A stretch of 36,520 bases of DNA from Balneolales bacterium (GTDB lineage: Bacteria > Bacteroidota > Rhodothermia > Balneolales > Cyclonatronaceae), in the NCBI GenBank assembly GCA_020832405.1, contig JAFIET010000038.1, positions 1 to 36,520 on the forward strand. The letters run 5' to 3'. This document shows positions 9,663 to 33,097 of the stretch, in pieces (position 1 is the first letter of the stretch; each line of letters starts with the position of its first letter). A program made the position numbers and the translations under genes. The notes beneath the pieces were generated by a model. That model was not told where the DNA came from. It was given only the letters and a program-made list of their open reading frames with translations, and ran no database searches.

Positions 9663-9722
9663 GCCCGCAGCAGGCTGTTGCCGTATCCTTCAAAAAATAA
9701 GACATGTAGGTGTGCAAACATT

Positions 9723-14758: not shown

Positions 14759-17700
14759 ATGTCTAAACCAACGAACATGATTAGATTGAAACAGTTTATG
14801 ATCCTGCTGAGCTTGCTGCTGATCGGTTTTTCCGCCAGTGCAATTGCTCAGGAACGAGTGATCGTACAGGAAGATCCGGACGGCTGGAGGCTTCTTGTTG
14901 ACGGTGAGCCCTTAATGGTAAACGGTATGAACTGGGATTATTTCCCGATTGGTACCAATTACGAATACGATTTTTGGGGACAACCCACAAGATTTATTCA
15001 GAATGCCCTTAACTATGAAATGGGGCTGCTGCAAAATATGGGCGTAAACGCGATTCGTGTTTACACCGGTATTACCCCGGAATGGGTTGAGTACATTTAT
15101 GACAATTTCGGCATTTATACCATGCTCAACCATTCATTTGGCCGCTACGGTGTGATGCTGAACGACGGCTGGATGGCCAATACAGAGTACGCTGACCCCC
15201 GCGTTCAGGAGCTGCTTCTTCGCGAGGTAACGGAAATGGTTGAGGAATTCCACGGTACCCGCGGATTACTTCTGTACCTGCTTGGTAACGAAAACAACTA
15301 CGGGCTTTTCTGGGGCGGCGCTGAAACGGAAGATATCCCGGTTGTTGACCGTGAATCAACCACTCGTGCCCGTGCGATGTACCAGCTGTTTAACGATGCA
15401 GCCCTTGCCATGAAAGAAATTGCCCAGGACCGCCCGATTGCTATGGCAAACGGTGATCTCCTGTTCATGGACCTCGTGGTTCAGTACATGCCTGATATGG
15501 ACATTTTCGGTGCCAATGTGTACCGTGGCGAAACCTTCACGGATCTTTACGACCGTGTAGCTGCCGAGTACGGCAAGCCCGTTCTTCTTACCGAGTTTGG
15601 TTCTGATGCTTTTAACGCGAGAACCAACCAGGAAGATCAGCTGATGCAGGCACACTTCAAGCACCTCAACTGGTTAGACATCTATCAGAATGCTGCCGGC
15701 CTTGGCCGTGCCAACAACTCTATTGGTGGTTTTACCTTCCAGTGGAGCGATGGTTGGTGGAAATTAGGCCAGACAACTGATCTTGATGTACACAATACAG
15801 GCGCTTCGTGGGCTAACGGCGGCTACTGGTGGGATTATCAGGAAGGTGAAAACAACATGAACGAAGAGTGGTTCGGTATTATGGCCAAAGGCCCGACCGA
15901 TGCTGCCGGTCATTTTGAGCTCTTCCCCCGTGCCGCATACTACGTTCTGCAGCGTGCCCACCAGCTTGATGTGTATGCACCGGGTACTACGCTGGAAAGT
16001 GTTACCGAGCATTTCAATCAGATTAACCTGATGAACGCTGTACTCCAGGCCCGTGGTGACCGTGCTGCTTTGCAGGTTGAGCGCATCTCCGGCATCCGTC
16101 TGAGCCGCTTTACAGCCGATTTTACCACCTTCAATACAGGTGGAGATAAAATCACAACCCCTGAAAGTGCTGACCCCAATACCCGTCAGTTCCCCAACGA
16201 AAGGGGTTTCGACCATATGCAATCGTTCTACATCGGCATTGAAGCTGAGCCATCTCCGGATATGCGTGCTGAGGTGCAGTTCAATGTTCTTGCAAACGTA
16301 GCCCAAAACCCGATTGATGAAATTTTCTACGAAAACCGCGGCCGGCCTGCAGAAGTCCTTACTCCGGATGGCATTACCATGCTTGAGGATGTAAACCGTC
16401 TTAAAGTGTACAGCGCAAGCTACAGCTGGAACCACCGCTACTTCGATCTCGATGGTTTCTACCGCACCGGCCGCTATCACTGGGGCTACGAAGGCGACTT
16501 CTTCGGTTTGTACCCTGAAGCCAACTACGGCGATCAGATCGATATCTACAACGGTATTGCACCCTTTGGCTTTGAAATGGCAGGCCGCCGTCAGTTCGAC
16601 GGTCTCAAATTCGCTTTTGGTCCGCAGCTGTGGTGGGGAGCCAACCCGGCTTTCCTTCTGAAATATCGCTACCGTCCGGGCCCGTGGGATATGGCTGCCA
16701 TCTATCATGAAGACATCGCGCGCCAGGGTATGGCAGAAAGCTCATTTGCGATTCCGCAGCCCAAAACACGCCGCGTAACTTTTGCAGCAGGCCGCGATAT
16801 CGGTCCCTTAGGTGTGGAAGCAGGCGTTATTTGGGCAGGTCAGCCCCTGAACGGCCGTGAATTCCAGCTTGTACGCGACGGTAATGTGTATGTGGATGAA
16901 ATCAAGCCGGAAGACAACTGGGGCGGTAAACTTAAGCTTACCTACCAGCGCGGAAACTTTAACTGGTACGCACAGTCAGCCGTGATGGGTCTTGTTGCCC
17001 AGGGTGGTTACGACCAAACCATGACTTTCACCGGCTGGCACCTCAAAGACAGCGGCAGCGGTAACCAGTACAACGTACTTACCGGTTTCGCCTACCAGCT
17101 GGGTAACTTCCAGATTGCACCGAACTTCCTGTGGCAGCAGCCGATTGAAGGCCCTGTAACAGCTGAAGCCGGCGGAGCAGCCCGCCCGAGAAACATCCTT
17201 GATGATCCGTTTGTAGTGCGCGCCAACCGTGAAATGGTTGCCGGTGAGCTTCTGATCACCTTCGACCCCACCCCGGCCACCTACATGTTCGACTGGAACA
17301 ACGATTACCGCGAAGATGCCCCGTTTGCAGCAAGTGTTGGTTTTATCTACCGCCACCTGCCAACCACACAGGATGCAGCTATCGGTATTCTGCCTGACGG
17401 CCGTACAACCTTCGCTTTCCCCGGTGCACCACCGGCAAAAGACCTCTGGGAAGTACACGCACGTATCGTTTCCCGCATGAGCCCTGATCTCGGCATGATT
17501 GCACGCCTCTACGGCGGCGATGCTCAGGCCAACGGCAGCGACCCGCGCACGGTAAGCCGCTACGGTGGTGATCTCCGTGTGATTTACCGCAACATTATGC
17601 TCAACTCATTTGTGCGCGTTAACGATTGGGGCCCTTACGACTACCATCGTGACTTTAACCTTACCTTCCCGCTTCAGCTCATGGCAGATGTTTCGATGTC

Positions 17701-17905
17701 GCTTGGCGAGCAGGACTGGTTCAACATGCCACGCACCCGCCTCGGTGTACGCGGTACCTACCGCACTCTGGATGAGTTCTCGCCGCGCTACGCACCTGCA
17801 TTCATGGAAGATCCGAGCGGGCAGATCGTTCCAAACCCGGTTGCACCAGGTTTTGGAAATGGCAACGAGTGGGAATTCAGAACCTACATTCAGATCAACC
17901 TCTAA
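14759..17905 (+). CDS. Clan GH-A glycoside hydrolase fused to a predicted outer-membrane beta-barrel
   Basis: This 1048-residue protein has a signal peptide ending near Ala30 (SASAIA, then QE). Residues about 33-410 form a TIM-barrel glycosidase like GH2_C/GH5/GH72-type clan GH-A enzymes. The motif GVNAIRVYTGITPEW is followed by the acid/base Glu178 in LLGNENN and the nucleophile Glu279 in LLTEFGSDAF. From about residue 480 to the end the sequence changes to some 20 or more amphipathic strands with aromatic girdles and short turns, such as FAFGPQLWWGA, AFLLKYRYRPG, GGKLKLTYQRGN, NQYNVLTGFAYQLGN and RLGVRGTYRTLDE, ending EWEFRTYIQINL. That is an outer-membrane barrel pattern. The likely role is surface beta-glucan cleavage or transglycosylation coupled to the membrane. 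Exact GH family and pore function are not provable here. Met7 is an alternative start. Confidence 0.85.
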   Translation: MSKPTNMIRLKQFMILLSLLLIGFSASAIAQERVIVQEDPDGWRLLVDGEPLMVNGMNWDYFPIGTNYEYDFWGQPTRFIQNALNYEMGLLQNMGVNAIRVYTGITPEWVEYIYDNFGIYTMLNHSFGRYGVMLNDGWMANTEYADPRVQELLLREVTEMVEEFHGTRGLLLYLLGNENNYGLFWGGAETEDIPVVDRESTTRARAMYQLFNDAALAMKEIAQDRPIAMANGDLLFMDLVVQYMPDMDIFGANVYRGETFTDLYDRVAAEYGKPVLLTEFGSDAFNARTNQEDQLMQAHFKHLNWLDIYQNAAGLGRANNSIGGFTFQWSDGWWKLGQTTDLDVHNTGASWANGGYWWDYQEGENNMNEEWFGIMAKGPTDAAGHFELFPRAAYYVLQRAHQLDVYAPGTTLESVTEHFNQINLMNAVLQARGDRAALQVERISGIRLSRFTADFTTFNTGGDKITTPESADPNTRQFPNERGFDHMQSFYIGIEAEPSPDMRAEVQFNVLANVAQNPIDEIFYENRGRPAEVLTPDGITMLEDVNRLKVYSASYSWNHRYFDLDGFYRTGRYHWGYEGDFFGLYPEANYGDQIDIYNGIAPFGFEMAGRRQFDGLKFAFGPQLWWGANPAFLLKYRYRPGPWDMAAIYHEDIARQGMAESSFAIPQPKTRRVTFAAGRDIGPLGVEAGVIWAGQPLNGREFQLVRDGNVYVDEIKPEDNWGGKLKLTYQRGNFNWYAQSAVMGLVAQGGYDQTMTFTGWHLKDSGSGNQYNVLTGFAYQLGNFQIAPNFLWQQPIEGPVTAEAGGAARPRNILDDPFVVRANREMVAGELLITFDPTPATYMFDWNNDYREDAPFAASVGFIYRHLPTTQDAAIGILPDGRTTFAFPGAPPAKDLWEVHARIVSRMSPDLGMIARLYGGDAQANGSDPRTVSRYGGDLRVIYRNIMLNSFVRVNDWGPYDYHRDFNLTFPLQLMADVSMSLGEQDWFNMPRTRLGVRGTYRTLDEFSPRYAPAFMEDPSGQIVPNPVAPGFGNGNEWEFRTYIQINL

Positions 17906-17927: not shown

Positions 17928-19355
17928 ATGATGAAATTAGTCATAGATAACACAAAATACGCTTTAGCGGCAGCTTTGCTGCTGTTGCTGGGTGTTTCCG
18001 CATGTGAGCGTTCTGTTGACGGTTTACCGGAGCCGGAACTTACCTCTAACCCTGAAGTCTTTATAGACAGCTTCACCCCCGGGCTTGAGTATTACCCGTA
18101 TGAAGGTTCCGTGCAAAACGCGTTCAGCGTTGATACCAATACCTTCTTCGGGAACAGAGGCGCTTCAATGCGCTTCGACATCCCGAATGTAGGCGACCCT
18201 CTTGGTGCATTTGCAGGCGCTATTTTCAGAGATGATTTTGGCGGAAGAAACCTCACTTCCTACAATGCCCTTACCTTCTATGCCAAAGCCACCAAAGCCG
18301 CAACTATTAACGATATTGGTTTTGGCCAGGATTTCCTTGGCAACAGCTACGAAGTTTCAAGAAGGAACCTCAGAATCACTACCAACTGGCGCAAGTACAC
18401 CATTCCGATTCCGGATCCGTCAGCTCTTTCAGCAAGTCAGGGTTTGTTCTGGTACGCTGAAGGCCCCGAAAACGGCGACGGCTACACTTTCTGGATCGAC
18501 AACCTGAAGTATGAAAACCTTGAAAACATGGCCCAGCCGCGTCCGGCTATTTTTAATGGCGAGGAACTGTCACAGATTGGCTTTATCGGTTCTGGTGCAC
18601 AGGTTACAGGTTTAACTTACACCGCCAATCTGCCCGACGGTCAGGATGTGACTGTAACGGCAGCTCCGGCTTACTACCGCTTCGCAAGCAGCAACACCGG
18701 TGTTGCTACCGTTGATGCAAACGGCCGCATTACGGTTGTTGGTGAAGGTGATGCTACCATCTCTGCAACGCTTGCCGGTGTTCCGGCCGCAGGTTCACTG
18801 AAAATCGAGTCTCAGGGAGAATTCATTTTCGCCCCGACTCCGACTCAGGCTCCTGAAAACGTAATCTCCATTTTCAGCGATGTGTATGAGAACGTCCCTG
18901 TTGATTTCTACAACGGATTTTACGAGCCATTCCAGACCACAACCTCTAACGATTTCCAGGTTGACGGCGACAACATTCTCGGATACGAAAACTTCAACTT
19001 TGTTGGAATCGAATTCAGACAGAATGTGCCGACCATTGATGCAACTGGCATGACGCATTTGTCGCTTCACATCTTCCTGCCTAACGATGTTCCTCCGGGA
19101 TCGGCCTTCAGAGCAAGAATTGTGAACAATGTAGGCGGAAATGAATCAAGCGCGTCTGCTACTGTTTTTGCAAACAGCGGTGTGCCGAGGCTGGTATCGG
19201 GCGAGTGGGTGCATGTACTTGTGCCGCTTACCGGTATGGCTGACAGATCTAATCTGGGACAAATCGTCTTCGATTCAGATCAGGGACCTGCGCTTCAGGG
19301 TGCTACCATCTGGGTAGATAACATCTTCCTGTACAATGCCAACGCAGGCAATTAA
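17928..19355 (+). CDS. Surface lipoprotein with carbohydrate-binding-type domains
   Basis: I start at the ATG at 17928 rather than an in-frame TTG at 17916. The 475-residue product has a lipoprotein signal with Cys26 (LLLLLGVSAC). An N-terminal beta-sandwich (about 40-205) contains LTFYAKATKAATINDIGF and ends in FWIDNLKYEN, the usual finish of CIA30/CBM-like domains. A bacterial Ig-like Big_2 stretch (about 210-295: SSNTGVATVDANGRITVVGEGDATISATL) follows. A second sandwich (about 310-470) ends WVDNIFLYN. The paired IDN/VDN endings suggest two related glycan-binding modules. No catalytic residues are apparent. It lies between the barrel-fused glycosidase and the GH16 gene and probably holds glucan at the surface, in the place a SusD/SusE-type protein would occupy elsewhere. 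Confidence 0.82.
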   Translation: MMKLVIDNTKYALAAALLLLLGVSACERSVDGLPEPELTSNPEVFIDSFTPGLEYYPYEGSVQNAFSVDTNTFFGNRGASMRFDIPNVGDPLGAFAGAIFRDDFGGRNLTSYNALTFYAKATKAATINDIGFGQDFLGNSYEVSRRNLRITTNWRKYTIPIPDPSALSASQGLFWYAEGPENGDGYTFWIDNLKYENLENMAQPRPAIFNGEELSQIGFIGSGAQVTGLTYTANLPDGQDVTVTAAPAYYRFASSNTGVATVDANGRITVVGEGDATISATLAGVPAAGSLKIESQGEFIFAPTPTQAPENVISIFSDVYENVPVDFYNGFYEPFQTTTSNDFQVDGDNILGYENFNFVGIEFRQNVPTIDATGMTHLSLHIFLPNDVPPGSAFRARIVNNVGGNESSASATVFANSGVPRLVSGEWVHVLVPLTGMADRSNLGQIVFDSDQGPALQGATIWVDNIFLYNANAGN

Positions 19356-19382: not shown

Positions 19383-20213
19383 ATGAGATTTGCTCTGATT
19401 TTAATGAGCGCGTTTTGTATTGCTGCCCCCCTCTTTTGGGGGTGCAGCGATCAAAATGATGCTGAAGAAGATCGTTTTCCTACCCTGGTGTGGAGCGATG
19501 AGTTTGACACCGACGGAACCATAAACCCGGATAACTGGATTTTTGATATCGGTACCGGCGCCGAACAGGGTATCCCCGGCTGGGGCAACAACGAGCTGCA
19601 GTACTATACCGACCGCCCCGAAAATGTTAAGGTTGAAGGCGGGATGCTGCATATCACTGCCCGTCGCGAAGCTTTTCAGGGTTCCGCTTTTACCTCCGGG
19701 AAAATTCTGACCCGCGGACTTTTCGAAACGACCTTCGGCCGTTTTGAAGCAAGCATCAAACTTCCTTTCGGGCAGGGCATCTGGCCTGCTTTCTGGCTGC
19801 TGGGTGACGATTCTGACGGAACCGTGATATGGCCGCAAATTGGCGAAATTGACATCATGGAGTATCGTGGTCAGCAACCGACCATTATTCATGGCAGCGT
19901 GCACGGGCCCGGTTATTCAGCCGGAAATGCTGTCACCAAAACCTATCAGCTTAGCGGATCGAGATTTGATACCAAATTCCACGTTTTTGCAATTGAATGG
20001 GGTCCTGATTTTATAGATTTTTTTGTTGATGATGTACTCTATAATACCATCACCCCGGCAGATGTAGGAAATAACGAGTGGGTTTTCAACGATAATAAGT
20101 TTTATATCATCCTTAATGTAGCAGTTGGCGGTACTTTCGTAGGTTCACCCAACAATAACACACCGTTTCCGCAAACAATGCTCGTAGATTATGTGAGAGT
20201 TTACTCCAGGTAA
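19383..20213 (+). CDS. GH16 laminarinase-type endo-beta-1,3-glucanase, lipoprotein
   Basis: The 276-residue protein has a lipoprotein signal with Cys21 (LFWGC) and a single GH16 domain. The catalytic signature GEIDIMEYRG gives nucleophile Glu155, helper Asp157 and acid/base Glu160. Other family marks are LVWSDEFD at the start, WGNNELQYYTDRPENVKVEGGMLHITAR, RFEASIKLPFGQGIWPAFWLLG and the ending FPQTMLVDYVRVYSR. The extra Met in ExDxxE is the beta-bulge form typical of laminarinases (GH16_3 type). It should cut beta-1,3-glucan chains at the cell surface. The gene starts 27 bases after the upstream lipoprotein gene. Confidence 0.95.
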   Translation: MRFALILMSAFCIAAPLFWGCSDQNDAEEDRFPTLVWSDEFDTDGTINPDNWIFDIGTGAEQGIPGWGNNELQYYTDRPENVKVEGGMLHITARREAFQGSAFTSGKILTRGLFETTFGRFEASIKLPFGQGIWPAFWLLGDDSDGTVIWPQIGEIDIMEYRGQQPTIIHGSVHGPGYSAGNAVTKTYQLSGSRFDTKFHVFAIEWGPDFIDFFVDDVLYNTITPADVGNNEWVFNDNKFYIILNVAVGGTFVGSPNNNTPFPQTMLVDYVRVYSR

Positions 20214-20282: not shown

Positions 20283-23200
20283 TTGTCAATCTCAACCGAA
20301 CATTTTCAGAACGGGAAGTGGTTTAAAATCTCCGATTACGATGCCATGCGTCCGTTTTTTATGAGCATTGTGAGCGATTCCAATCACTGGATGTTTATTT
20401 CCAGCAACGGAGGTCTTACCGCCGGGCGGAAAAACAGCGATTACGCCCTGTTCCCTTATTACACAGATGACAAAGTCACCGAATCAGCTGATATTACCGG
20501 CAGCAAGACGATTTTCCAGGTACAGCATAACGGAGGCCTTCGGGTTTGGGAACCCTTCTCGGAGCGTCAGGCCGGTTTATGGCAGCTAAGCCGGAATTTG
20601 TACAAGAGCTTTAGCGGTAACAAAATTCTGTTTGAAGAGATCAATCACGACCTTGGGCTCACATTCCGGTATCAGTGGAACTCAAGCAATCTTTACGGAT
20701 TCGTACGTAAGAGCGAGCTGCTAAATACTTCCGGTGAAAAGCGTGTGCTGAACGTACTCGACGGCATTCAGAACATCCTCCCGTACGGCGTTGAGCCTGA
20801 CACACAAACCGCGGCAAGCAACCTTGTTGATGCCTACAAGCGCAGTGAAATCGTACCCGGATCAAACCTCGGTATTTATGCCCTCAGCGCCATTATTGTT
20901 GACAAAGCCGAGCCGAGCGAAGCCCTGAAAGCTAATGTTGCCTTTTCACTTGGGTTCGAAAATCCGGTTTGTCTCGCCTCTTCACTTCAGCTCAATACTT
21001 TCCGGAAAGGGCAGATGATTACCGGTGAAGACGACGTGAAGGGTGAAAAAGGTGCCTATTTTGTCTGTGACCGCCTCACCCTTGAAGCCGGTGCTTCCAA
21101 AAACTGGCTGATCGTTGCAAACGTAAATCAAAATTATGCGCAGCTTGTATCTCTCAGTCACGAAATTCAGAACGACGCGGGACTTGAAGCCAAGCTGGAA
21201 GCCGATATTGAACAGGGTACCGAAAAGCTGCGTGCCCTGGTAGCCGGAGCTGACGGCCTGCGCCTGAGTGCAGATAACCTGAAAGACGCCCGCCATTTTT
21301 CGAATGTATTGTTCAACATCATGCGTGGCGGTACCTTCGATCATAATTATCAGATTGAGCGCGGCGACCTTAGCCGCTATCTCGAAAACGCGAACAAAGC
21401 CGTATTTAATAAACGCGAGCAAAAGCTCGCAGCCCTGCCGCATACCTTCGACAAGCCGCAGCTTGACGCCCTCATTTCAGAGAGCACGGATCCGGATTTC
21501 AGCCGTTTGCTTTGCGAGTACCTCCCCCTGAAATTCAGCCGCAGGCACGGCGACCCAAGCCGCCCGTGGAACTACTTCTCCATCAATACAAACAGCGAGC
21601 TCGACGGTTCCAAAATTCTCGATTACCAGGGTAACTGGCGCGATATTTTCCAGAACTGGGAAGCACTCGTACATGCCTACCCGAATTTCATCGAAGGCAT
21701 GATTTTCAAATTCCTGAACACTTCTACCTTCGACGGATACAACCCTTACCGCGTAACCAAAGACGGATTCGACTGGGAAACCATCGAGCCCGATAACCCC
21801 TGGTCGTATATCGGCTATTGGGGCGATCATCAGATTATTTACCTGCTTAAGTTTCTCGAATTTTACAAAACCCGCCATGACAATGGCTTTGACTCCCTGT
21901 TTGAGAACAGCAGCTTCGTTTACGCACATGTTCCGTACCGGATTAAACCTTACGAACAAATCGCACAGGACCCCAAAAACACCATCGATTTTGATGAGGC
22001 CGCTGATGCTGCCATCCGCAAGGCGGTAGAAGAACAGGGTGCTGACGGGGCACTGCTCAGAAACGAAACCGGTGACATTCACCGGGTCAGCTTTCTTGAA
22101 AAAATACTGGCAACAACCCTTGCCAAGGTATCCAACTTCATTCCCGAAGCCGGTATTTGGATGAACACGCAGCGGCCGGAGTGGAATGATGCCAACAATG
22201 CGCTGGTCGGCAACGGGGTTTCTATGGTAACGCTCTGCTACCTGCGCCGCTTTCTTGCCTTTTTTGAACAGGTATTCGAAAGCAGTAAGCTGGATAAGGC
22301 AGAAGTTTCGGAGGAAATACTGGTCTTTTTCCAAAGCGTAGCACAGGTGCTGGAAGAGCAAAAACCGATGCTTGAGGGCACTGTTGATGATGCAGCCCGC
22401 CTGCGTATTACGGAAGCTCTGGGCAAAGCCGGCAGCATTTACCGCGTAAAGGTATATGAAAGCGGGTTTAGCGGCAAAAAAGGTGAGCTTACCAAGGCTG
22501 AGCTGGCTCAGTTTACCCGCACAGCGCGTCTGTTTATGGAGCATGCCATCAAAGCCAACCGTCGGGCCGATAAGCTCTATAACGCTTATAACATCATGAC
22601 ACTCGATGAAAACGGTATTTCTATAGGCCACTTGGATGAGATGCTCGAGGGGCAGGTTGCTGTACTCAGCTCCGGCTTCCTTAGTGCCGAAGAAAGCGTA
22701 GAGGTGCTTGATGCCATGCGCAAGAGCGCGCTCTACAGAGCCGATCAGAACAGCTACATGCTCTATCCGAACAAGCAGCTGCCACGCTTTCTCGAGAAAA
22801 ACATCATCCCGAATGAGCTGGTTAAAACTTCACCGCTGCTCGAAAAACTGCTCGCCGACGGAAACCTTCAGATTGTAAACCGCGACATTCTCGGCGGGGT
22901 GCATTTTAACGGAAACTTCCGCAATGCAGCTGATGTGAAGGCTGCCCTCAGCGACCTTAGCAAAGGTCCCTACGCAGCACTTGCAGAAACAGACGGACCG
23001 GCTGTTCTGCGCATCTTTGAACAGGTGTTCAATCACAAAGCTTTCACCGGCCGCTCCGGTACCTTCTTTGCGTATGAAGGTTTGGGATCGATTTACTGGC
23101 ACATGGTATCCAAACTTTATCTTGCGGTTTGGGAAGTTTGTGATCGTGCTGCAGCGACTGAGGCAACTGAAGACGCTCAATCAAGGCTTGCAGCTCATTT

Positions 23201-23696
23201 TTACGGCGTAGCCGACGGTATTGGCGTGCATAAGCCGCCAAAGGTGTACGGTGCTTTCCCTACCGACGCCTATTCCCACACGCCCTGGCACCGGGGCGCA
23301 CAACAGCCCGGCATGACGGGGCAGGTGAAGGAAGATATACTCGCAACCATTGGCGAGCTTGGGGTATCCGTAACTGACGGCGCCCTGAATTTCACCCCCC
23401 GATTGCTTAGAAAGGCAGAGTTCACTCAAGGCGCTCATACGTTCACTTTCGTGGATGTAAATCAGCAGCAGGCACAGATTCAGGTGCCGGCAAAAGCCCT
23501 GTGTTTTTCTTACTGCCAGGTACCCGTACTGTACTGTATAGCCGAAACCGATAAGGTTGAGGTAACACTTAGCGCAGGCCGTTCCGAAGTTTCTGACGGA
23601 CTGCGTATCGGCTCAGCGATGAGTAAGCTGGTTTTTGACCGGACCGGTGATGTGAAGCAAATAACGGTGCATCTCCGTGAGGCGCACCTCAAATAA
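20283..23696 (+). CDS. Beta-1,3-glucan/oligoglucan phosphorylase, GH94-related (GH149/GH161-like)
   Basis: This large (about 1137-residue) soluble protein has no signal peptide. The N-terminal SDSNHWMFISSNGGLTAGR...DYALFPYY opening and the long central helical domain fit clan GH-Q phosphorylases. Key segments are NYQIERGDLSRYL, YQGNWRDIFQNWEAL, DGFDWE, WSYIGYWGDHQIIYLLKFLE and RPEWNDANNALVGNGVSMVT. By analogy with GH94, the Asp of the last (Asp636 from this start) is the likely general acid. The length fits GH149 or GH161 rather than the shorter GH94. Such enzymes split beta-1,3-oligoglucans with phosphate to give glucose-1-phosphate. The start is a TTG; the nearest ATG (codon 22) would remove part of the conserved opening. 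The choice between GH149 and GH161 is unresolved. Confidence 0.82.
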   Translation: MSISTEHFQNGKWFKISDYDAMRPFFMSIVSDSNHWMFISSNGGLTAGRKNSDYALFPYYTDDKVTESADITGSKTIFQVQHNGGLRVWEPFSERQAGLWQLSRNLYKSFSGNKILFEEINHDLGLTFRYQWNSSNLYGFVRKSELLNTSGEKRVLNVLDGIQNILPYGVEPDTQTAASNLVDAYKRSEIVPGSNLGIYALSAIIVDKAEPSEALKANVAFSLGFENPVCLASSLQLNTFRKGQMITGEDDVKGEKGAYFVCDRLTLEAGASKNWLIVANVNQNYAQLVSLSHEIQNDAGLEAKLEADIEQGTEKLRALVAGADGLRLSADNLKDARHFSNVLFNIMRGGTFDHNYQIERGDLSRYLENANKAVFNKREQKLAALPHTFDKPQLDALISESTDPDFSRLLCEYLPLKFSRRHGDPSRPWNYFSINTNSELDGSKILDYQGNWRDIFQNWEALVHAYPNFIEGMIFKFLNTSTFDGYNPYRVTKDGFDWETIEPDNPWSYIGYWGDHQIIYLLKFLEFYKTRHDNGFDSLFENSSFVYAHVPYRIKPYEQIAQDPKNTIDFDEAADAAIRKAVEEQGADGALLRNETGDIHRVSFLEKILATTLAKVSNFIPEAGIWMNTQRPEWNDANNALVGNGVSMVTLCYLRRFLAFFEQVFESSKLDKAEVSEEILVFFQSVAQVLEEQKPMLEGTVDDAARLRITEALGKAGSIYRVKVYESGFSGKKGELTKAELAQFTRTARLFMEHAIKANRRADKLYNAYNIMTLDENGISIGHLDEMLEGQVAVLSSGFLSAEESVEVLDAMRKSALYRADQNSYMLYPNKQLPRFLEKNIIPNELVKTSPLLEKLLADGNLQIVNRDILGGVHFNGNFRNAADVKAALSDLSKGPYAALAETDGPAVLRIFEQVFNHKAFTGRSGTFFAYEGLGSIYWHMVSKLYLAVWEVCDRAAATEATEDAQSRLAAHFYGVADGIGVHKPPKVYGAFPTDAYSHTPWHRGAQQPGMTGQVKEDILATIGELGVSVTDGALNFTPRLLRKAEFTQGAHTFTFVDVNQQQAQIQVPAKALCFSYCQVPVLYCIAETDKVEVTLSAGRSEVSDGLRIGSAMSKLVFDRTGDVKQITVHLREAHLK

Positions 23697-25101: not shown

Positions 25102-25140
25102 CATCCTGCCGGAGGATAGGGCCGAAGCCCTTGCAGGATG
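25102..25140. repeat. Nested palindrome in the leader of the symporter gene
   Basis: CATCCTGC (25102-25109) pairs with GCAGGATG (25133-25140), and inside the loop GGGC-CGAA-GCCC (25119-25130) forms a second hairpin. On the minus strand the inner loop reads UUCG, the very stable tetraloop. The element ends 29 bases before the symporter start codon, so it could be a leader regulator, an RNA-stability element or a REP-like repeat. Confidence 0.5.
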
Positions 25141-25169
25141 ATGGTATAAAACATCCTAAAATCAGAATA

Positions 25170-26600
25170 ATGTCAGCAATGCAAACACCTGCCAAAGACA
25201 GGGTACCTTTACTGCAAAAAGCAGCATTCGGATCCGGTCATCTGGTTAATAACCTTTTGCCCGGAGCACTGGGCGTATTTTCCTTCTTCCTGCTCACGGC
25301 TTTTGGCATGGACCCATTCCTGGCAGGATTGCTGGGAGGGTTGCCCCGGCTTTTCGACGCCATAACCGACCCCATTATGGGGTACATCTCAGACAATACG
25401 AAATCAAGCTATGGCCGCCGCCGTCCTTACATTTTTATAGGGGCTATTGCCAGCGGTTTGCTGTTTATGCTTTTGTGGCAGCTTGATCCTGACGCTTCAC
25501 AGGCGTACAACTTCTGGTATTTCATGCTGTTTTCGCTGATTTACCTGATCGGGAACACCATGTTTTCAACCCCGCTGATTGGTCTTGGCTATGAAATGAC
25601 TTTCGATTACAACGAGCGTACCCGACTTATGGGGTTCTCCCAAACGGTCGGGCAGATAGCCTGGATGATTGTACCCTGGTTTTGGGTACTTATTGCAAAT
25701 CCCGATTTGTTTGAAACACAGGCGCAGGGTGTACATCAGCTGGCAATTATTGTAGGCCTGAGCTGTATGTTTTTTGGCATAATGCCTGCCATTTTTTGCC
25801 GTGAAGTAGATCAGGCCAACCTGTCGAACAGGGCTGATCTCACCTTCAAAGCAATTTTTAAAAACCTCAAAGAGCTGATTGCCAACATGAAGCTGATTGC
25901 CCAAAACCAGCCTTTTGCGCGGCTTTGCGGTGCAACCTTCCTGGTGTTTAACGGTTTTCAGATGGTAGCCTCTTTCAGTTTCTTTATTATCGTGTTTTAC
26001 ATGTTTAACGGCGACTACGGTATGGCGGGAACATGGCCGGCATGGTTTTCTACGGTAAGTGCTTTTGCGACGGCCTTCCTGATTATCCCGATAGTAACAT
26101 GGCTGGCCAACAGATATGGTAAGCGCAAGGCGTTCATCATTTCAACAGCGCTTTCTATGGTTGGCTATCTGCTTAAATGGTGGGGCTTCAGCCCGGAAAA
26201 CCCCTGGCTCATTTTTATGCCAATTCCGTTTATGGTATTTGGTATCGGCGGCTTGTTCACGCTTATGATGAGTATGACAGCCGACGTTTGTGACCTTGAT
26301 GAGCTTAAAAACGGTATGCCGCGTAAAGAAGGTACCTTCGGTGCGATTTACTGGTGGATGGTGAAACTTGGGCAGGGTATTGCCCTTGTATTGGGAGGGC
26401 TGGTTCTTAAGCTGGTCGGTTTTGATCCTGAACTTTCAGTTCAGACAACCGCAACGCTTACCAATCTGCGCCTTGCGGATATCCTTATTCCGGCCTTTAC
26501 TGCCGGTCTGGCCATCTGGGTGATGTGGGGATACGACCTCACCGAACAAAAGGCCCGGGATATTAAGGATGAGCTTGTAAGAAGAAGAGGTGAGCTGTAA
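25170..26600 (+). CDS. GPH-family (MelB-like) cation:sugar symporter
   Basis: I choose the ATG at 25170; the frame is open back to a TTG at 25131, but that start lies inside the palindrome. The 476-residue protein has about 12 membrane helices and the MelB-type signature DAITDPIMGYISDNTKSSYGRRRPYIFIGA after the second helix. Other family points are TRLMGFSQTVGQIAW and SMTADVCDLDELKNGMPRKEGTFGAIYWWMVKLGQG in the C-terminal half. GPH proteins import glycosides with Na+ or H+. Set between an anchored GH17 and cytoplasmic GH17/phosphorylase enzymes, it most likely carries beta-1,3-gluco-oligosaccharides across the inner membrane. Confidence 0.9.
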   Translation: MSAMQTPAKDRVPLLQKAAFGSGHLVNNLLPGALGVFSFFLLTAFGMDPFLAGLLGGLPRLFDAITDPIMGYISDNTKSSYGRRRPYIFIGAIASGLLFMLLWQLDPDASQAYNFWYFMLFSLIYLIGNTMFSTPLIGLGYEMTFDYNERTRLMGFSQTVGQIAWMIVPWFWVLIANPDLFETQAQGVHQLAIIVGLSCMFFGIMPAIFCREVDQANLSNRADLTFKAIFKNLKELIANMKLIAQNQPFARLCGATFLVFNGFQMVASFSFFIIVFYMFNGDYGMAGTWPAWFSTVSAFATAFLIIPIVTWLANRYGKRKAFIISTALSMVGYLLKWWGFSPENPWLIFMPIPFMVFGIGGLFTLMMSMTADVCDLDELKNGMPRKEGTFGAIYWWMVKLGQGIALVLGGLVLKLVGFDPELSVQTTATLTNLRLADILIPAFTAGLAIWVMWGYDLTEQKARDIKDELVRRRGEL

Positions 26601-26665: not shown

Positions 26666-27571
26666 ATGTCATTCAGAGAAGAAAGATTTTTAAGCTATGC
26701 CTCCGTAGGAGCGCAGGATCGTACCGGTTACATGGAAAGCCTTCCGGCTGAAGACCTTAACTGCCTTTTCATGGAAATCATGCAAAACGGCATTCACGGG
26801 CTCTGTTTCAGCCTGTATGAAGACGGTCAGAAACCGGGTGATGTTATTGGTGAGGCCCAAATAAGACGCCGTATGGAAATCATCAAGCCTTACTCAGGCT
26901 GGGTTCGCTCCTTTTCCTGTATCGAAGGCAATGAACTGATCCCGAAAATCGCCAAAGAACTGGGCGTTAAAACCCTTGTCGGTGCCTGGCTCGGGCACGA
27001 TAAAGAGAAAAACCGCGAAGAAATCGACGCGCTTATCGAGCTTGGAAAGCAGGGTTTCGTAGATATCGCAGCCGTCGGCAATGAGGTACTCTACCGTAAG
27101 GACCTCACCGAAGAAGAGCTGCTGGCCTACATCCGCGAAGTGAAAGAAGCCCTGCCTGATATCCCCGTAGGTTATGTAGATGCCTACTACGAATTCGTGC
27201 AGCGCCCTGCTATTGCCGAAATCAGCGATGTCATTTTATGCAACTGCTACCCCTACTGGGAAGGCACCGCTTTCGAGCACAGCTTCGGCCACATGCGCCA
27301 CATGTTTGAGCTTGGCGTGCAGGCAGGCAAAGGCAAACGCGTGATCATCACCGAAACCGGCTGGCCAAGTAAGGGTGAAGGCCTTGGCGGAGCTGTCCCT
27401 TCAAAAGAAAATGCCCTCAAATATTTTATTAATACCCAGCTTTGGGCCAATGATAATAATATTGAGGTGTTCTACTTTTCATCTTTTGATGAATCCTGGA
27501 AAGTGGGCGCCGAAGGTGAAGTTGGCGCCTATTGGGGATTGTGGGACAAAAACGAAAAACTCAAATTCTGA
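26666..27571 (+). CDS. GH17-family glycosidase without signal peptide
   Basis: The 301-residue product begins MSFREERFLSYASVGAQ and has no signal, so it should act in the cytoplasm. The GH17 barrel shows VRSFSCIEGNELIPKIAKELGVKTLVGAWLG, the acid/base Glu140 in AAVGNEVLYR, the nucleophile Glu230 in VIITETGWPSKG and FYFSSFDESWKV near the end. The reaction should be cleavage or transfer on beta-1,3-gluco-oligosaccharides brought in by the upstream symporter. It is followed after only 2 bases by a second GH17 gene of similar size but low resemblance, suggesting complementary specificity rather than recent duplication. Confidence 0.9.
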   Translation: MSFREERFLSYASVGAQDRTGYMESLPAEDLNCLFMEIMQNGIHGLCFSLYEDGQKPGDVIGEAQIRRRMEIIKPYSGWVRSFSCIEGNELIPKIAKELGVKTLVGAWLGHDKEKNREEIDALIELGKQGFVDIAAVGNEVLYRKDLTEEELLAYIREVKEALPDIPVGYVDAYYEFVQRPAIAEISDVILCNCYPYWEGTAFEHSFGHMRHMFELGVQAGKGKRVIITETGWPSKGEGLGGAVPSKENALKYFINTQLWANDNNIEVFYFSSFDESWKVGAEGEVGAYWGLWDKNEKLKF

Positions 27572-27573
27572 GA

Positions 27574-28506
27574 ATGACTACATTTGAGCAACTCGGTATG
27601 GAAGCCGGAAGAGCAGTCTGCTATTCCGGCTTCCGTGAGGGGCAGCAGCCCGGAGGCCCTTATCCCACTTACGAACAGGTAGTCGAAGATCTGCACCTGA
27701 TGCGCCCGCACTGGAAACACCTGCGTATGTACGACTGCGACGAACACGCCATTATGGTTTTGAAAGCTATCCGGCAGGAAAAGCTCGGCTTCACCGTAAT
27801 GCTCGGCGCCTACATCGAGGCCGAAATGAACAACTTTAACTGCCCATGGGGCGGTGGTGTGTACAGCGAGGAACAGCTTGATATAAATGTTGCCCTCAAT
27901 AAGTCCAAAATGGAAAAGCTCATCGCACTGGCCAACGAATACCCCGATATTGTTTCAAGCCTTTCGGTTGGCAACGAGGCCTGCGTAGAATGGACGGATC
28001 ATTATGTGCATGAAAACAGTGTGCTCGCTTATGTAAAGCAGGTGCAGGCCGGCGCAAAACAACCGGTTACCTTCTGTGAAAACTATGTGCCCTGGCACAT
28101 GAAGCTGCAAAAACTGGCCGAAGCCGTTGATTTTATTTCCATACACACCTACCCCGTGTGGGAATACAAGCACATCGACGAAGCACTCGATTATACCCGC
28201 GACAATTACTACTCGGTAGCTGCCAAATATCCCGGCAAACCCGTTGTAATAACCGAGGCCGGCTGGGCAACCAACTCCAACGGCCGCGGCATCAATCCGG
28301 GAAACGTGAACGAGACCTATCAGAAAATTTATTTCGAAAAGCTGATGACCTGGACCGATACGGAAGGCATCCTGACCTTCTTTTTTGAAGCTTTCGATGA
28401 ATCCTGGAAAGGCTCTCCCGAACCGCTTGAACCGGAGAAACACTGGGGACTCTTCAAAATTGACCGTACGCCGAAGCTCGCCCTTCAACATTTAAGCGGC
28501 TATTAA
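27574..28506 (+). CDS. Second signal-less GH17-family glycosidase
   Basis: The start at 27574 lies immediately after the upstream stop and gives a 310-residue protein without a signal peptide; an in-frame TTG inside the previous gene is less likely. GH17 motifs are HWKHLRMYDCDEHAIMVLKAI, acid/base Glu135 in LSVGNEACVEW, DFISIHTYPVWEYKH and nucleophile Glu228 in VVITEAGWAT, then FFFEAFDESWKG. It resembles the anchored GH17 at 23713 more than its immediate neighbour (shared VGNEAxVxW and TxGWAT forms). Predicted work is cytoplasmic processing of imported beta-1,3-glucan fragments, perhaps sizing them for the phosphorylase. Confidence 0.9.
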   Translation: MTTFEQLGMEAGRAVCYSGFREGQQPGGPYPTYEQVVEDLHLMRPHWKHLRMYDCDEHAIMVLKAIRQEKLGFTVMLGAYIEAEMNNFNCPWGGGVYSEEQLDINVALNKSKMEKLIALANEYPDIVSSLSVGNEACVEWTDHYVHENSVLAYVKQVQAGAKQPVTFCENYVPWHMKLQKLAEAVDFISIHTYPVWEYKHIDEALDYTRDNYYSVAAKYPGKPVVITEAGWATNSNGRGINPGNVNETYQKIYFEKLMTWTDTEGILTFFFEAFDESWKGSPEPLEPEKHWGLFKIDRTPKLALQHLSGY

Positions 28507-28578: not shown

Positions 28579-31269
28579 TTGAAGCTCTTATCCCTTTTTT
28601 TTCTGCTATTTCTGGCACTTCCCGCTGAGGCGCAGCTGCTTCCCGAAAAGGGGGTGCCCCGAATGGATAGTTTCACACCGGCTGATTATCAAAATGCCGG
28701 GAAAATATGGGATATCGACTCAGCCCCAAACGGCATTGCTTACCTTGCTGCCGACAGGGGCCTGCTCGAATTCGATGGCCGGAAATGGCGCCGGTTCAGA
28801 GGCAGCGACGGCTTCATACGCTCTGTTTTGGTGATGAGCGATTCCCTGCTCTATACTGGTTCCGATCTGGATTTCGGCCGATGGATCAGGGATGATGCCG
28901 GCGGCTGGCACTACACATCCCTGTATCCTTTCCGGGATGAGCTGGCGGGCCTGGCTGAAGAGTTTTGGGGGGTACACGAACAGAACGGCTACCTTTATTT
29001 CGTTTCAGCGAGTAACCTGTATGTGTACCGGAATCAGAATCTCACAAAAATTGCTGCCCCCAGCCGTTTTTCAGGCAGCGTTTTTTTTGAAGATACACTT
29101 TGGATTGCTGATGAAGTTCAGGGTCTGATGCGCGTTTCTGAATTTGCACTTCAGCCTTTTGCGCCTTTTCCGGAGCCGGGCCCGCAGGAGCTCACGGGGC
29201 TCTACCGGCAGGGGGAAGCTCTGATGGTTGTTACCCGTAAATCCGGCTTGCTGCGCTATGAAGACGGTGCAATGCAGGCAGATAACAGCCCCCTTGCCCG
29301 GGAACTGAATGCGGCAGCGGTATTCAGCTTTGAACCTCTCGGACAGGATTTCCACGCTTTCGGCACAGTACAGCGCGGTGTGTTTATTGTAAACGCCACC
29401 GGAAGGCTTGTGCATCACATCAACCGAAACAAAGGGCTGCCAAACAACACCGTGCTTAGCCTTCACTTTAGTCCCTTTGGAAAACTGTGGTCAGGCCTGG
29501 ATTTTGGCCTTACGACCCTTGACCTTCGCAGCAGCCGCACTTTTATTTACGATTACCGCGGCGATTTCGGAACCGGCTACTCGGCCCTGCTTCAGCATGA
29601 TACCTTCTACCTCGGTACCAATCAGGGGCTTTATTACGTACCCTGGCAGCAGCTGGATAACAGCAGTGCTTTTTTTGACTTCCGGCAGGTTCCCGGCTCC
29701 GACGGGCAGGTGTGGTCAATTCATGAAATTGGGGATGAGGTTTTTGTAGCCCACGACCGCGGCTTATTTGTGTACCGCGATCGCCGCCTCCGCCTGATCG
29801 GAGAAGCCCGCGGCACCTGGACCGTTATCCCTTTCGGCTCGTATCTGCTTGCAGGTACTTACAATGGTATTTCGGTTTTTGAAAAGCAGCAGGGGGAATG
29901 GCGCTTATTGCGGCAGATGGAGCTGATTGTGGGGTCCGCGAGTCAGCTCATACCCGAGAGCCCAAACCTGCTTTGGGTGAACATCCCGAATTTCGGCTTT
30001 GTACGCGCCCGTCTCGATGAAAATTTGTTTCCCGTTGAGCGTACCTTTTTTCCTGTTGCTGATTTTGAGGGCGATGATGCTTTTCTGGTTTACGAAAACG
30101 ACAGCCTGAGCGTGATCAGTAGCCTCTACCGCTACCATTTTGATGCTGATTCGGAGGCTTTCGGCCCTAAACAACCTCAATATCATCATCACCTGCCCGA
30201 TGAGGTGCTCCCGGGTATTTTTAGCCCAATCGCTCTGAATGATGGCTGGCATTTTTTTCCGGTATCCAACGGATTCGCACTTCAGGATCTTAACAGAGCA
30301 TACGATCCTGAACAGCTGAACCGGCAGTTGAGGCTGCAGCGGGCTAAACTTTTCAGCAATGATGCCCTGCAGGCCTGGCAGCCCGGCATCATCCTGCCCA
30401 AAAATATGAATAACCTGCGCCTCGATTTTGTGATTCCTAACGAAACAGACTTCTGGTATCAGTACCGGTCAGGACCTGCGGCAGAATGGAGCAGCCCTTC
30501 TCAAAATGCCGGAATTGAACTCATCGGCCTTCGGTCGGGGCAGCATGAATTGCAGGTAAGAGCGCTTTTTGGCGGGGAAGTTATTGCCGAAAAAAACATT
30601 ACGTTCCGGGTTGCTGCTCCCTGGTACTTCAGCTGGTACGCCTTTCTGGTTTATGCCCTGCTGATTTTCGGCGGATGGAGCCTTCTGAAGCGCTGGCACC
30701 GGGAAATTCTGCTGGAACAGAAAAAAGCTCTGGTTCAGCGGCAGCAAAAAGATTTTAAAGATCAGGCTGCAAGGCATCGGCAGCAGGTGATGCTGCTGGA
30801 GCAGGAGCGCCTTCAGGAAGAACTCGACAAACTCGAAAAAGCCCTGAAGAACAAGACTCTCGAGCTGGCTAACCGTGCTAAAAAAAGTCAGGATAAAAAC
30901 CGGATTTTACGCGAAGCCAGAGATAAAATGCAGGCACTTGAAGCAACCTCTCAGGTTTCCAAAATCCGGATTCAGGATGTAAGCAAACTCATCGACTCAT
31001 GTATTGAGCTTGAGGATAACACCTTCGAGATTCAGATGAGCGAGCTGCATCAGGAGTTTTTCAGGAAGATGAAGGAGCTCTACCCTGAGCTTTCGGGTAA
31101 CGACCTGCGCCTGTGTGCTTATGTGAAGCTCGGTTTCAGCGCTAAGGAAATTGCCGAGATGCTGCACATACAGCCCTCGAGCGTGTACATCAGCCGATCC
31201 CGACTCCGCAAAAAGCTCAACCTTGAAACTGATGAAGATTTGTACGGTTTCCTGAACAGTATTGAGTGA
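28579..31269 (+). CDS. Membrane-tethered propeller/Y_Y_Y regulator with LuxR-type HTH
   Basis: The 896-residue protein starts at a TTG (28579) that gives an ideal signal peptide ending near PAEA-Q. Residues about 30-600 are beta-propeller-like repeats (KIWDIDSAPNGIAYLAADRGLLEFDGRKW, GLPNNTVLSLHFSPFGKLWSGLDFGLTTLD). A Y_Y_Y-type sandwich follows (about 600-680: NNLRLDFVIPNETDFWYQYRS). One transmembrane helix lies at about 684-704. A long coiled coil (about 710-790) leads to a LuxR/GerE-type helix-turn-helix (about 838-882: LSGNDLRLCAYVKLGFSAKEIAEML...). No kinase or receiver domain is present, so the sensor acts directly on DNA from the membrane. By position it probably senses glucan fragments in the periplasm and controls the surrounding genes. 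Confidence 0.9.
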   Translation: MKLLSLFFLLFLALPAEAQLLPEKGVPRMDSFTPADYQNAGKIWDIDSAPNGIAYLAADRGLLEFDGRKWRRFRGSDGFIRSVLVMSDSLLYTGSDLDFGRWIRDDAGGWHYTSLYPFRDELAGLAEEFWGVHEQNGYLYFVSASNLYVYRNQNLTKIAAPSRFSGSVFFEDTLWIADEVQGLMRVSEFALQPFAPFPEPGPQELTGLYRQGEALMVVTRKSGLLRYEDGAMQADNSPLARELNAAAVFSFEPLGQDFHAFGTVQRGVFIVNATGRLVHHINRNKGLPNNTVLSLHFSPFGKLWSGLDFGLTTLDLRSSRTFIYDYRGDFGTGYSALLQHDTFYLGTNQGLYYVPWQQLDNSSAFFDFRQVPGSDGQVWSIHEIGDEVFVAHDRGLFVYRDRRLRLIGEARGTWTVIPFGSYLLAGTYNGISVFEKQQGEWRLLRQMELIVGSASQLIPESPNLLWVNIPNFGFVRARLDENLFPVERTFFPVADFEGDDAFLVYENDSLSVISSLYRYHFDADSEAFGPKQPQYHHHLPDEVLPGIFSPIALNDGWHFFPVSNGFALQDLNRAYDPEQLNRQLRLQRAKLFSNDALQAWQPGIILPKNMNNLRLDFVIPNETDFWYQYRSGPAAEWSSPSQNAGIELIGLRSGQHELQVRALFGGEVIAEKNITFRVAAPWYFSWYAFLVYALLIFGGWSLLKRWHREILLEQKKALVQRQQKDFKDQAARHRQQVMLLEQERLQEELDKLEKALKNKTLELANRAKKSQDKNRILREARDKMQALEATSQVSKIRIQDVSKLIDSCIELEDNTFEIQMSELHQEFFRKMKELYPELSGNDLRLCAYVKLGFSAKEIAEMLHIQPSSVYISRSRLRKKLNLETDEDLYGFLNSIE

Positions 31270-31531: not shown

Positions 31532-33097
31532 ATGAAAACGCAGAACGCTGTTGTAACCCGCATCGCCATGATTGTAGCGCTTGGCGGGTTTTTGATGGGC
31601 TTCGATGCCTCGGTAATTTCGGGCGTTGTCCGGTTTATTGAGCCGGAGTTCGGACTCTCCAAAATTCAGCTGGGATGGGCGGTCGGCTCGCTTACCCTCA
31701 CCGCGACCCTGGCCATGATGATTGCCGGGCCGCTGAGCGACCGCTTCGGGCGGCGGACCATCCTGAAAGCCGCCGCGATTTTGTACGCGGTTTCGGCTCT
31801 TGGCTCGGCCCTGGCGCCGGATTTCACCACGCTCGTGATTGCCCGCATGATCGGCGGCTTCGGCGTAGGTGCCTCTCTCATTATCGCCCCAATGTACATT
31901 GCGGAAATCGCCCCGCCCAAAATCCGCGGCCGGCTGGTAAGCTTCAATCAGCTCAATATTGTAATCGGTATTTCGGCAGCTTTCTTCACCAACTACCTCA
32001 TTTTACAGTGGTCGCAGTCCGACGCCGCATGGGCACAGGCCCTGATGTTCAGCGAATACACCTGGCGCTGGATGCTCGGCCTCGAAACCCTTCCCGCCGT
32101 GATCTATTTCTTTGGCCTGTACTTCGTGCCGAAGAGTCCGCGCTGGCAGATCATGAAAGGAAGCGTGCCCGAAGCCCGCATCACCCTGAACCGGATCTAC
32201 GGAGAAGACGAAACCGACCGGCAGATTGAGGACGTGCTTCGCAGCCTGAAAGCAGATGAGAAAAAAGAAAAAGTTTCCCTCAAAGAAATTTTCCATCCGT
32301 CGCTGCGGCTGGTGCTTGGTATCGGGGTTGTTCTGGCTGTGCTGCAGCAGATTACCGGAATTAACGCGGTCTTTTTCTATGCGCCCATGATTTTCGAGCA
32401 GTCCGGCATCGGAACGGATGCTTCGTTTATGCAGGCCATCCTGGTCGGCCTTACCAACCTGGTGTTCACCATTGTGGCCATGCTACTGATTGATAAGCTC
32501 GGGCGCAAGCCGCTGCTGGTTATCGGTATGAGCGGCATCACCCTGATGATGATGCTTCTCGCCTGGGGCTTCCATTCGGCGACCTACGAGCTGAGCAGCG
32601 AAGACATTCAGGCGATGGAAATCCCCGCTGAAACCCGTGCCGTTGCCGGCAGTCTGGCAGGGGTGCCCTTCGCAAGCGATGTGGCTTTTAAACGCGCCCT
32701 GGCCGAAACCCTCGGCACTGAAGCAGCCGTGGAGTTCGAATCGGCCTTCATTACCGCGGCCATCGACATCAACCCCACCCTCATTTTGTTCGGCATTCTG
32801 GGCTTTGTGGCTTCATTTGCCATCTCCATCGGACCCGTGATGTGGGTGATGTTTTCGGAGCTGTTCCCACTCCGGGTGCGGGGGCTGGCCATTTCGTTTG
32901 CCGGCTTCATCAACTCGGGCGTCAGCTTCGGCGTGCAGCTGGTTTTCCCCTGGGAGCTCGCCGTGCTGGGCAACAGCATCACCTTCCTCATCTACGGCGT
33001 ATTTGCCGCAATCGGCCTGGTATTTATCTGGCGCATGGTTCCTGAAACCAAAAACAAAACCCTTGAAGAATTAGAACAGCAACTCGTAAAGAAATAG
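31532..33097 (+). CDS. MFS sugar-porter (glucose/xylose-type) transporter
   Basis: This 521-residue, 12-helix protein has the sugar-porter marks: DRFGRRTILK after helix 2, RMIGGFGVGAS with PMYIAEIAPPKIRGRLVSFNQL, VPKSPRW at the start of the central loop, QQITGINAVFFYAPMIF in helix 7 and VPETKNKTLEELE at the end. Members usually move monosaccharides with H+. An extra loop of about 70 residues before the last helices (around 350-425) is longer than usual. The gene ends 2 bases before the GH3 start, so the pair probably hydrolyses glucan fragments in the periplasm and imports the glucose. Confidence 0.93.
   Translation: MKTQNAVVTRIAMIVALGGFLMGFDASVISGVVRFIEPEFGLSKIQLGWAVGSLTLTATLAMMIAGPLSDRFGRRTILKAAAILYAVSALGSALAPDFTTLVIARMIGGFGVGASLIIAPMYIAEIAPPKIRGRLVSFNQLNIVIGISAAFFTNYLILQWSQSDAAWAQALMFSEYTWRWMLGLETLPAVIYFFGLYFVPKSPRWQIMKGSVPEARITLNRIYGEDETDRQIEDVLRSLKADEKKEKVSLKEIFHPSLRLVLGIGVVLAVLQQITGINAVFFYAPMIFEQSGIGTDASFMQAILVGLTNLVFTIVAMLLIDKLGRKPLLVIGMSGITLMMMLLAWGFHSATYELSSEDIQAMEIPAETRAVAGSLAGVPFASDVAFKRALAETLGTEAAVEFESAFITAAIDINPTLILFGILGFVASFAISIGPVMWVMFSELFPLRVRGLAISFAGFINSGVSFGVQLVFPWELAVLGNSITFLIYGVFAAIGLVFIWRMVPETKNKTLEELEQQLVKK

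Follow-up and report, generated by a model that had tools for sequence, protein, structure and literature searches.

We describe a gene of a Balneolales bacterium that encodes in one polypeptide a clan GH-A glycosidase and a strongly predicted outer-membrane beta-barrel of about 24 strands. Entry of glycans through the outer membrane of Bacteroidota is taught almost entirely via the TonB-driven SusCD systems. Such a joining of enzyme and barrel seems so far undescribed, and our search of the literature, limited to open-licence papers, turned up no report of a glycosidase fused to a porin. The membrane half was probably overlooked because RefSeq names the protein by its enzyme half alone ("glycoside hydrolase family 2 TIM barrel-domain containing protein"). 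Taken as a whole, the observations are best explained if the protein is an outer-membrane enzyme-porin, with its barrel in the membrane, its enzyme at the periplasmic mouth and a role in the uptake of glucan fragments, which we hold with slightly better than even confidence. We favor this reading because the fusion is intact in more than 100 diverse genomes, with barrel and enzyme equally conserved (66% and 63% identity to the window, respectively), and because all barrel genes found are fused, the linker is fixed and a lipoprotein is co-inherited. In this sense, in many Bacteroidota and their Balneolota relatives, including a gut Bacteroides, the entry of sugar-chain fragments and their cutting may share one spot.

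The two halves of the fusion protein

The window, that is, the whole 36,520-nucleotide stretch of DNA analyzed, contains on its plus strand an open reading frame at 14759-17905 whose translation gives 1,048 residues and no internal stops. Its features are the following:

14759..17905, + strand: enzyme-barrel fusion gene, 1048 aa; intact reading frame, full-length orthologues 54-91% identical
14759..14848, + strand: type-I signal peptide, residues 1-30 (Met7 a possible start), read from the sequence by its K/R n-region, hydrophobic core and AIA/Q cleavage site
14858..16078, + strand: clan GH-A TIM-barrel glycosidase domain, residues ~34-440; Pfam GH2_C, profile matches to 6pal and to GH158 9oro, end of stand-alone homologues at ~430-440
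15290..15292, + strand: Glu178, putative catalytic acid/base (GNEN), invariant in 96/96 relatives
15593..15595, + strand: Glu279, putative catalytic nucleophile (TEFG), invariant in 96/96 relatives
16061..16093, + strand: short linker of fixed length, residues ~435-445; constant 425-446 spacing
16094..17902, + strand: predicted transmembrane beta-barrel of ~24 strands, residues 446-1048; AlphaFold2 model, Foldseek, alternation of loops and turns and of hydrophobicity

The signal peptide reads MIRLKQFMILLSLLLIGFSASAIA, with QERV after the cleavage point. The N-terminal part has a weak clan GH-A match in Pfam (GH2 TIM barrel, E 2e-4). Searched against the PDB, the enzyme family profile matched BuGH158 (6pal, E 3e-7) and a second GH158 structure (9oro, E 3.7e-4), with GH2 enzymes next; the relation to GH158 is remote, and GH2 profiles match the domain as well. 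BuGH158 is an endo-beta-1,3-glucanase of GH158 (PMC7157763). The enzyme is thus likely a beta-1,3-glucanase-like member of clan GH-A. In the alignment of fused relatives Asn177 is invariant together with the two glutamates (96/96). The preliminary description had read a signal peptide, a GH-A TIM barrel with this Glu pair and a membrane barrel from a single polypeptide, and this composition stands.

The same description had named soluble beta-sandwiches or a propeller as the folds that would speak against a C-terminal membrane barrel; structure prediction gave the barrel instead. The AlphaFold2 model of residues 392-1048 (linker and barrel), built with 96 sequences, reached a pLDDT of 81.1 and a pTM of 0.75 and presents about 24 long antiparallel strands, the final one at the extreme C-terminus. 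Among the best 50 Foldseek matches in the PDB essentially all are outer-membrane barrels (E 1.6e-10 to 1.4e-7), including Campylobacter MOMP, BtuB, Opd porins, AlgE, OmpF and LptD; their low TM-scores (0.2-0.39) make the fold class clear and single out no particular porin family. In the viral library, the best matches of the barrel were porins and one SusC. With strand boundaries taken from the AlphaFold2 model, some of them merged by hand, the gaps between strands alternate, being of 7-36 residues after odd strands and mostly 2-6 after even ones (Mann-Whitney p 1.8e-4), and the mean in-strand hydrophobicity alternation is 2.36 versus 1.13 +/- 0.16 in windows drawn at random from the enzyme half, with none of 2000 controls reaching 2.36. 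The model is therefore of porin type, with an even-stranded antiparallel barrel in which short periplasmic turns would alternate with long outer loops. Some loop regions might fill the lumen of the barrel, and we infer both the conduction of the pore and the activity of the enzyme.

By sequence, the C-terminal part belongs to no Pfam family, and no porin profile, Porin_O_P included, matched any of 23 barrels at E 0.1. Neither hmmsearch with the barrel profile nor phmmer with the single protein gave a match in the PDB. The TonB plug (PF07715) and the CarboxypepD-like domain are absent from the fusion protein and from 23 barrel relatives; as a control, a true SusC from the same genome does show both. 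The autotransporter Pfam domain likewise had no match in these proteins.

The position of the enzyme relative to the membrane was judged from the linker and the loops. Stand-alone enzymes end at ~430-440, the first barrel strand is predicted from residue 446, and the distance between residues 425 and 446 is 21 in 91 of the 96 aligned sequences. Since the end of the enzyme adjoins strand 1 and the spacing is constant, little chain is left to thread a pore. Judged by the rule of long outer loops and short periplasmic turns, the modeled barrel has both its ends on the periplasmic side. Because strand 1 begins on that side and the linker seems too short for threading, the most likely place of the enzyme is the periplasmic mouth, not the outer one. 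The earlier proposal of an active site at the mouth of a pore holds as regards the covalent fusion, while the loop rule and the fixed linker move the site to what is most likely the periplasmic side.

The order of passenger and barrel and the periplasmic start of strand 1 are also seen in type V secretion, so the glycosidase might instead pass through its own barrel and be exposed at the cell surface; helices 393-441, predicted at pLDDT 85-90, could also speak for this. We consider such a display distinctly improbable. The helix at 424-435 is already present in stand-alone enzymes and so belongs to the enzyme, which leaves only ~5-12 residues before strand 1. This judgement is tempered by the confident prediction of helices 393-441 in a model that lacks their enzyme, so that we call threading unlikely and no more. 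The classical autotransporter barrel has 12 strands, against the ~24 predicted here, and the autotransporter domain is missing, as mentioned above.

The beta-1,3-glucan locus and the partner lipoprotein

Downstream of the fusion gene, the window encodes the following:

17928..19355, + strand: lipoprotein whose Big_2 domain is flanked by two beta-rich parts, likely a surface glycan-binding partner; lipobox GVSAC/ERSVD, Big_2, gene adjacency
19383..20213, + strand: GH16 beta-glucanase, surface-type lipoprotein; Pfam PF00722, WGC/SDQNDAEED with acidic residues after Cys
20283..23696, + strand: GH149 beta-1,3-glucan phosphorylase; NCBIfam NF058639, 1699 bits
23713..25005, + strand: GH17-like lipoprotein; Pfam GH17 below cut-off, lipobox MASC
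25131..26600, + strand: MFS_2 sugar transporter, inner membrane; Pfam PF13347, E 1.7e-61
26666..28506, + strand: two GH17 enzymes lacking a signal peptide; Pfam, sequences
28579..31269, + strand: membrane-spanning sensor/regulator with LuxR-type HTH; Pfam GerE, sequence
31532..33097, + strand: MFS sugar transporter; Pfam Sugar_tr
33100..35391, + strand: GH3 beta-glucosidase; Pfam, signal peptide

The combination of GH149, GH16 and GH17 with a GH3 enzyme and a sugar transporter is that of a beta-1,3-glucan utilization locus, and the GH149 assignment marks it as specific for this glucan. The order fusion, lipoprotein, GH16, and then often GH149, GH17 and MFS, is conserved across the phylum. Export of a polysaccharide by a porin with a periplasmic hydrolase, as in PgaA/PgaB, was considered and rejected: all enzymes of the locus are catabolic, among them a phosphorylase, and its transporters are importers. 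The product of 28579-31269 (896 aa) has a signal, propeller-like repeats, a membrane helix and the LuxR-type HTH, apparently sensor and regulator in one protein.

The lipoprotein gene is the immediate same-strand 3' neighbour of the fusion in 112 of 115 fusion loci and is present at 0 of 18 stand-alone enzyme loci; the 115 loci are related, and four or five of them are the same contig counted twice. In phylogenetically independent pairs, with the lipoprotein state coded from the locus tally, it goes with the barrel in 5/5 (p 0.0625, the minimum for five pairs). Its lipid Cys is followed by acidic residues, as in surface lipoproteins of the phylum, and we infer that it is of the surface-exposed type. 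Against the PDB its profile matched Big_2-type domains and, weakly, a CBM-like one.

Under the enzyme-porin reading, the signal peptide would direct the protein to the periplasm and the C-terminal barrel, strongly predicted, would insert into the outer membrane, with the GH158-like glycosidase tethered by the short fixed linker at the periplasmic mouth, as the topology suggests. Outside, as operon order and co-inheritance suggest, the surface GH16 lipoprotein would cut beta-1,3-glucan and the partner lipoprotein would hold the glucan at the barrel. Oligosaccharides would then cross the barrel, at whose exit the fused enzyme would trim them, and, by family assignments, the rest of the pathway would be supplied by the GH17 and GH3 enzymes, by import through MFS transporters and by the cytoplasmic GH149 phosphorylase.

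Upstream of the fusion, two Porin_O_P-type porins (9678-11009 and 13179-14228) are encoded beside PHO4/DUF47 genes. The second immediately precedes the fusion, a position kept in the nearest relative only, and between the two lies the gene of a 620-aa lipoprotein with an InlB B-repeat domain (11085-12947).

Distribution and probable loss of the barrel

Matches were found in 33/60 genomes of relatives, in 42/395 phylum-wide and in 6/218, 11/164 and 5/123 of three further orders. In the public genome collection, more than 580 loci carry barrel relatives, of which we looked at the best 80; those listed come from Balneolaceae, Flavobacterium, Chryseobacterium, Cloacibacterium, Saprospiraceae, Chitinophagaceae and Bacteroidales, and the family spans soil, marine, hypersaline and gut lineages. 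Barrel-bearing reading frames are all of ~1000-1130 aa, save those cut by contig ends, and every barrel relative examined is fused to the enzyme; a barrel-profile search of 297 genomes found neither a barrel-only gene nor a distant barrel gene. Homologues with the same domain order, sought as a check on the preliminary description, are hence conserved across the phylum, and chance or an assembly artefact was rejected given more than 100 independent intact fusions. The family would thus comprise more than 580 loci in which a glucan-degrading enzyme is covalently joined to a large plug-less barrel and one specific lipoprotein is kept alongside.

Horizontal spread of the fusion is suggested, since the identity of relatives to the window stays at ~54% or more despite a patchy presence. 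A Bacteroides finegoldii record has the fusion with the same gene order (WP_022275059.1, annotated just as a GH2 TIM-barrel protein). The B. finegoldii sequence NZ_OY725931.1, labelled "plasmid 29", encodes valyl-tRNA ligase and rpsA and is probably a piece of chromosome. One fusion from a metagenome-assembled genome labelled Verrucomicrobia is nested among those of Bacteroidota, by mis-binning or transfer.

Stand-alone enzymes (19 rows) nest within the fused ones in the enzyme tree, which shows 7 changes of state between fused and stand-alone, at least 5 of them forced by starred branches, while shuffles give 18. With the tree rooted at its midpoint, loss is more economical than gain; this nesting makes five or more losses of the barrel probable, and the stand-alone state is probably derived. 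One genome (G047) presents a direct case of barrel loss: a shortened enzyme gene ends in TAA and is followed by a remnant of ~54 barrel residues (L036, ~2022-3649; also L168). In another (G263; L176, 1124-3300), the fusion gene is split into enzyme and barrel parts by in-frame stops. The possibility that the two parts exist as separate secreted proteins, which had been named as evidence against the fusion, is thus borne out for the enzyme, in what looks like a derived state, and not for the barrel, for which no stand-alone form was found.

The repeated loss indicates that the barrel is dispensable and, together with lipid anchors in several stand-alone enzymes, also fits a mere membrane anchor that would fix the glycosidase to the outer membrane and conduct nothing specific. 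A lipobox occurs in 7/18 stand-alone enzymes versus 3/110 fused ones (Fisher p 3e-5, uncorrected for kinship; on inspection by eye, each of the three is doubtful), as if a lipid anchor substituted for the lost barrel. We nevertheless regard this explanation as rather unlikely: 600 residues kept at 66% identity and forming ~24 strands are a high price for an anchor, one specific lipoprotein is inherited together with the barrel, and many of the stand-alone enzymes lack any lipid anchor. If the barrel conducts, as the enzyme-porin reading proposes, the family would allow outer-membrane diffusion coupled to an enzyme to be put to the test, with natural barrel-loss strains as ready-made controls.

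Relation to SusC/SusD and other known systems

A search of the window confirmed that it contains no SusC/SusD pair, the mark of a canonical PUL, as the preliminary description had stated. SusD is absent from 111 of the 115 fusion loci, the four exceptions (G258, G148, G107 and G387) all belonging to one Flavobacteriaceae-like family, f29. At stand-alone loci it occurs in 4/18 (Fisher p 0.012 against the 4/115, uncorrected for kinship), counted within the fetched locus only, some stand-alone contigs being short; the contrast is gone in phylogenetically independent pairs. Three congeners of the window's genome carry SusCD at the locus of the stand-alone enzyme, where the fusion's barrel and its lipoprotein are missing. 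Two of them (G002 and G004) have the order SusC-SusD-GH16-enzyme-GH149 in place of the fusion locus, and in the third (G003) the contig begins at SusD, from which the locus is visible onward. The window's own genome has several SusD genes, one of them, with its SusC, on contig C135 and 79% identical to that of the congeners. This pair (5812-10526 in L214, G000) is orthologous to their glucan-locus pair and lies beside ABC-F and CotH genes, with no recognized glucan enzyme adjoining. The fusion locus therefore does without SusCD locally, while the genome as a whole retains it.

It had been proposed that the fusion replaces SusCD. For beta-1,3-glucan such a functional replacement would be compatible with the enzyme-porin reading and a stronger claim, possible rather than probable in our judgement. 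The scarcity of SusD at fusion loci and the SusCD of the congeners agree with it, and GH149 clusters lacking SusCD were noted earlier in Bacteroidetes, in passages that name no outer-membrane component for them (PMC5827456). Against it, the orthologous SusCD is kept elsewhere in the same genome, the four Flavobacteriaceae-like loci have both systems, independent pairs show no association, and most stand-alone loci also have no SusCD nearby (some contigs being short). We advance only tentatively the wider idea that Bacteroidota have a third architecture for taking up glycans through the outer membrane, one independent of TonB, in which a large porin would bear its own hydrolase at the periplasmic exit, cutting would drive and rectify uptake, and a dedicated surface lipoprotein would be paired with the porin as SusD is with SusC. 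Like SusC/SusD, the fusion combines a large outer-membrane barrel with a gene-adjacent lipoprotein; it differs in having neither TonB plug nor CarboxypepD domain, in the family of the lipoprotein and in the fused enzyme. BuGH158 shares with the enzyme half a remote sequence relation, the clan GH-A fold class and a beta-1,3-glucan locus with GH16 and GH3, but it is a stand-alone lipoprotein encoded in a SusCD locus, bears an Ig-like domain and lacks a barrel.

The polysaccharide porins PgaA, BcsC and PelB consist of an N-terminal periplasmic domain and a C-terminal porin (PMC9384988). They resemble the fusion in this arrangement and in having a hydrolase nearby; however, they serve export, their periplasmic domain is of TPR type and their hydrolase, for example PgaB, is a protein of its own. 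By analogy, the closest systems in logic would be Cyc2 and an MFS-GH17 fusion. Cyc2 joins an N-terminal cytochrome to a porin, with the cytochrome predicted to lie at the periplasmic face (PMC8406198), so that here too a functional domain is directly joined to an outer-membrane porin, although Cyc2 has 16 strands, a heme domain and a role in iron oxidation, and no sequence relation to our protein. FbGH17b (FORMB_24740) of the Formosa laminarin loci joins MFS and GH17; its authors, who were aware of no comparable transporter-CAZyme fusion from another bacterium, propose coupled hydrolysis and uptake (PMC6246565). As in our fusion, a transporter is joined to a glucan-cutting enzyme of the same catabolic pathway, but FbGH17b is an inner-membrane protein with MFS helices and a C-terminal GH17, and has no outer-membrane barrel. 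Several loci (L105, L118, L120, L135 and L036) contain, in the operon of the enzyme, MFS2 reading frames of 783-802 aa that resemble MFS-GH17 fusions, as was shown for L036; some loci may thus encode an enzyme fusion for each of the two membranes.
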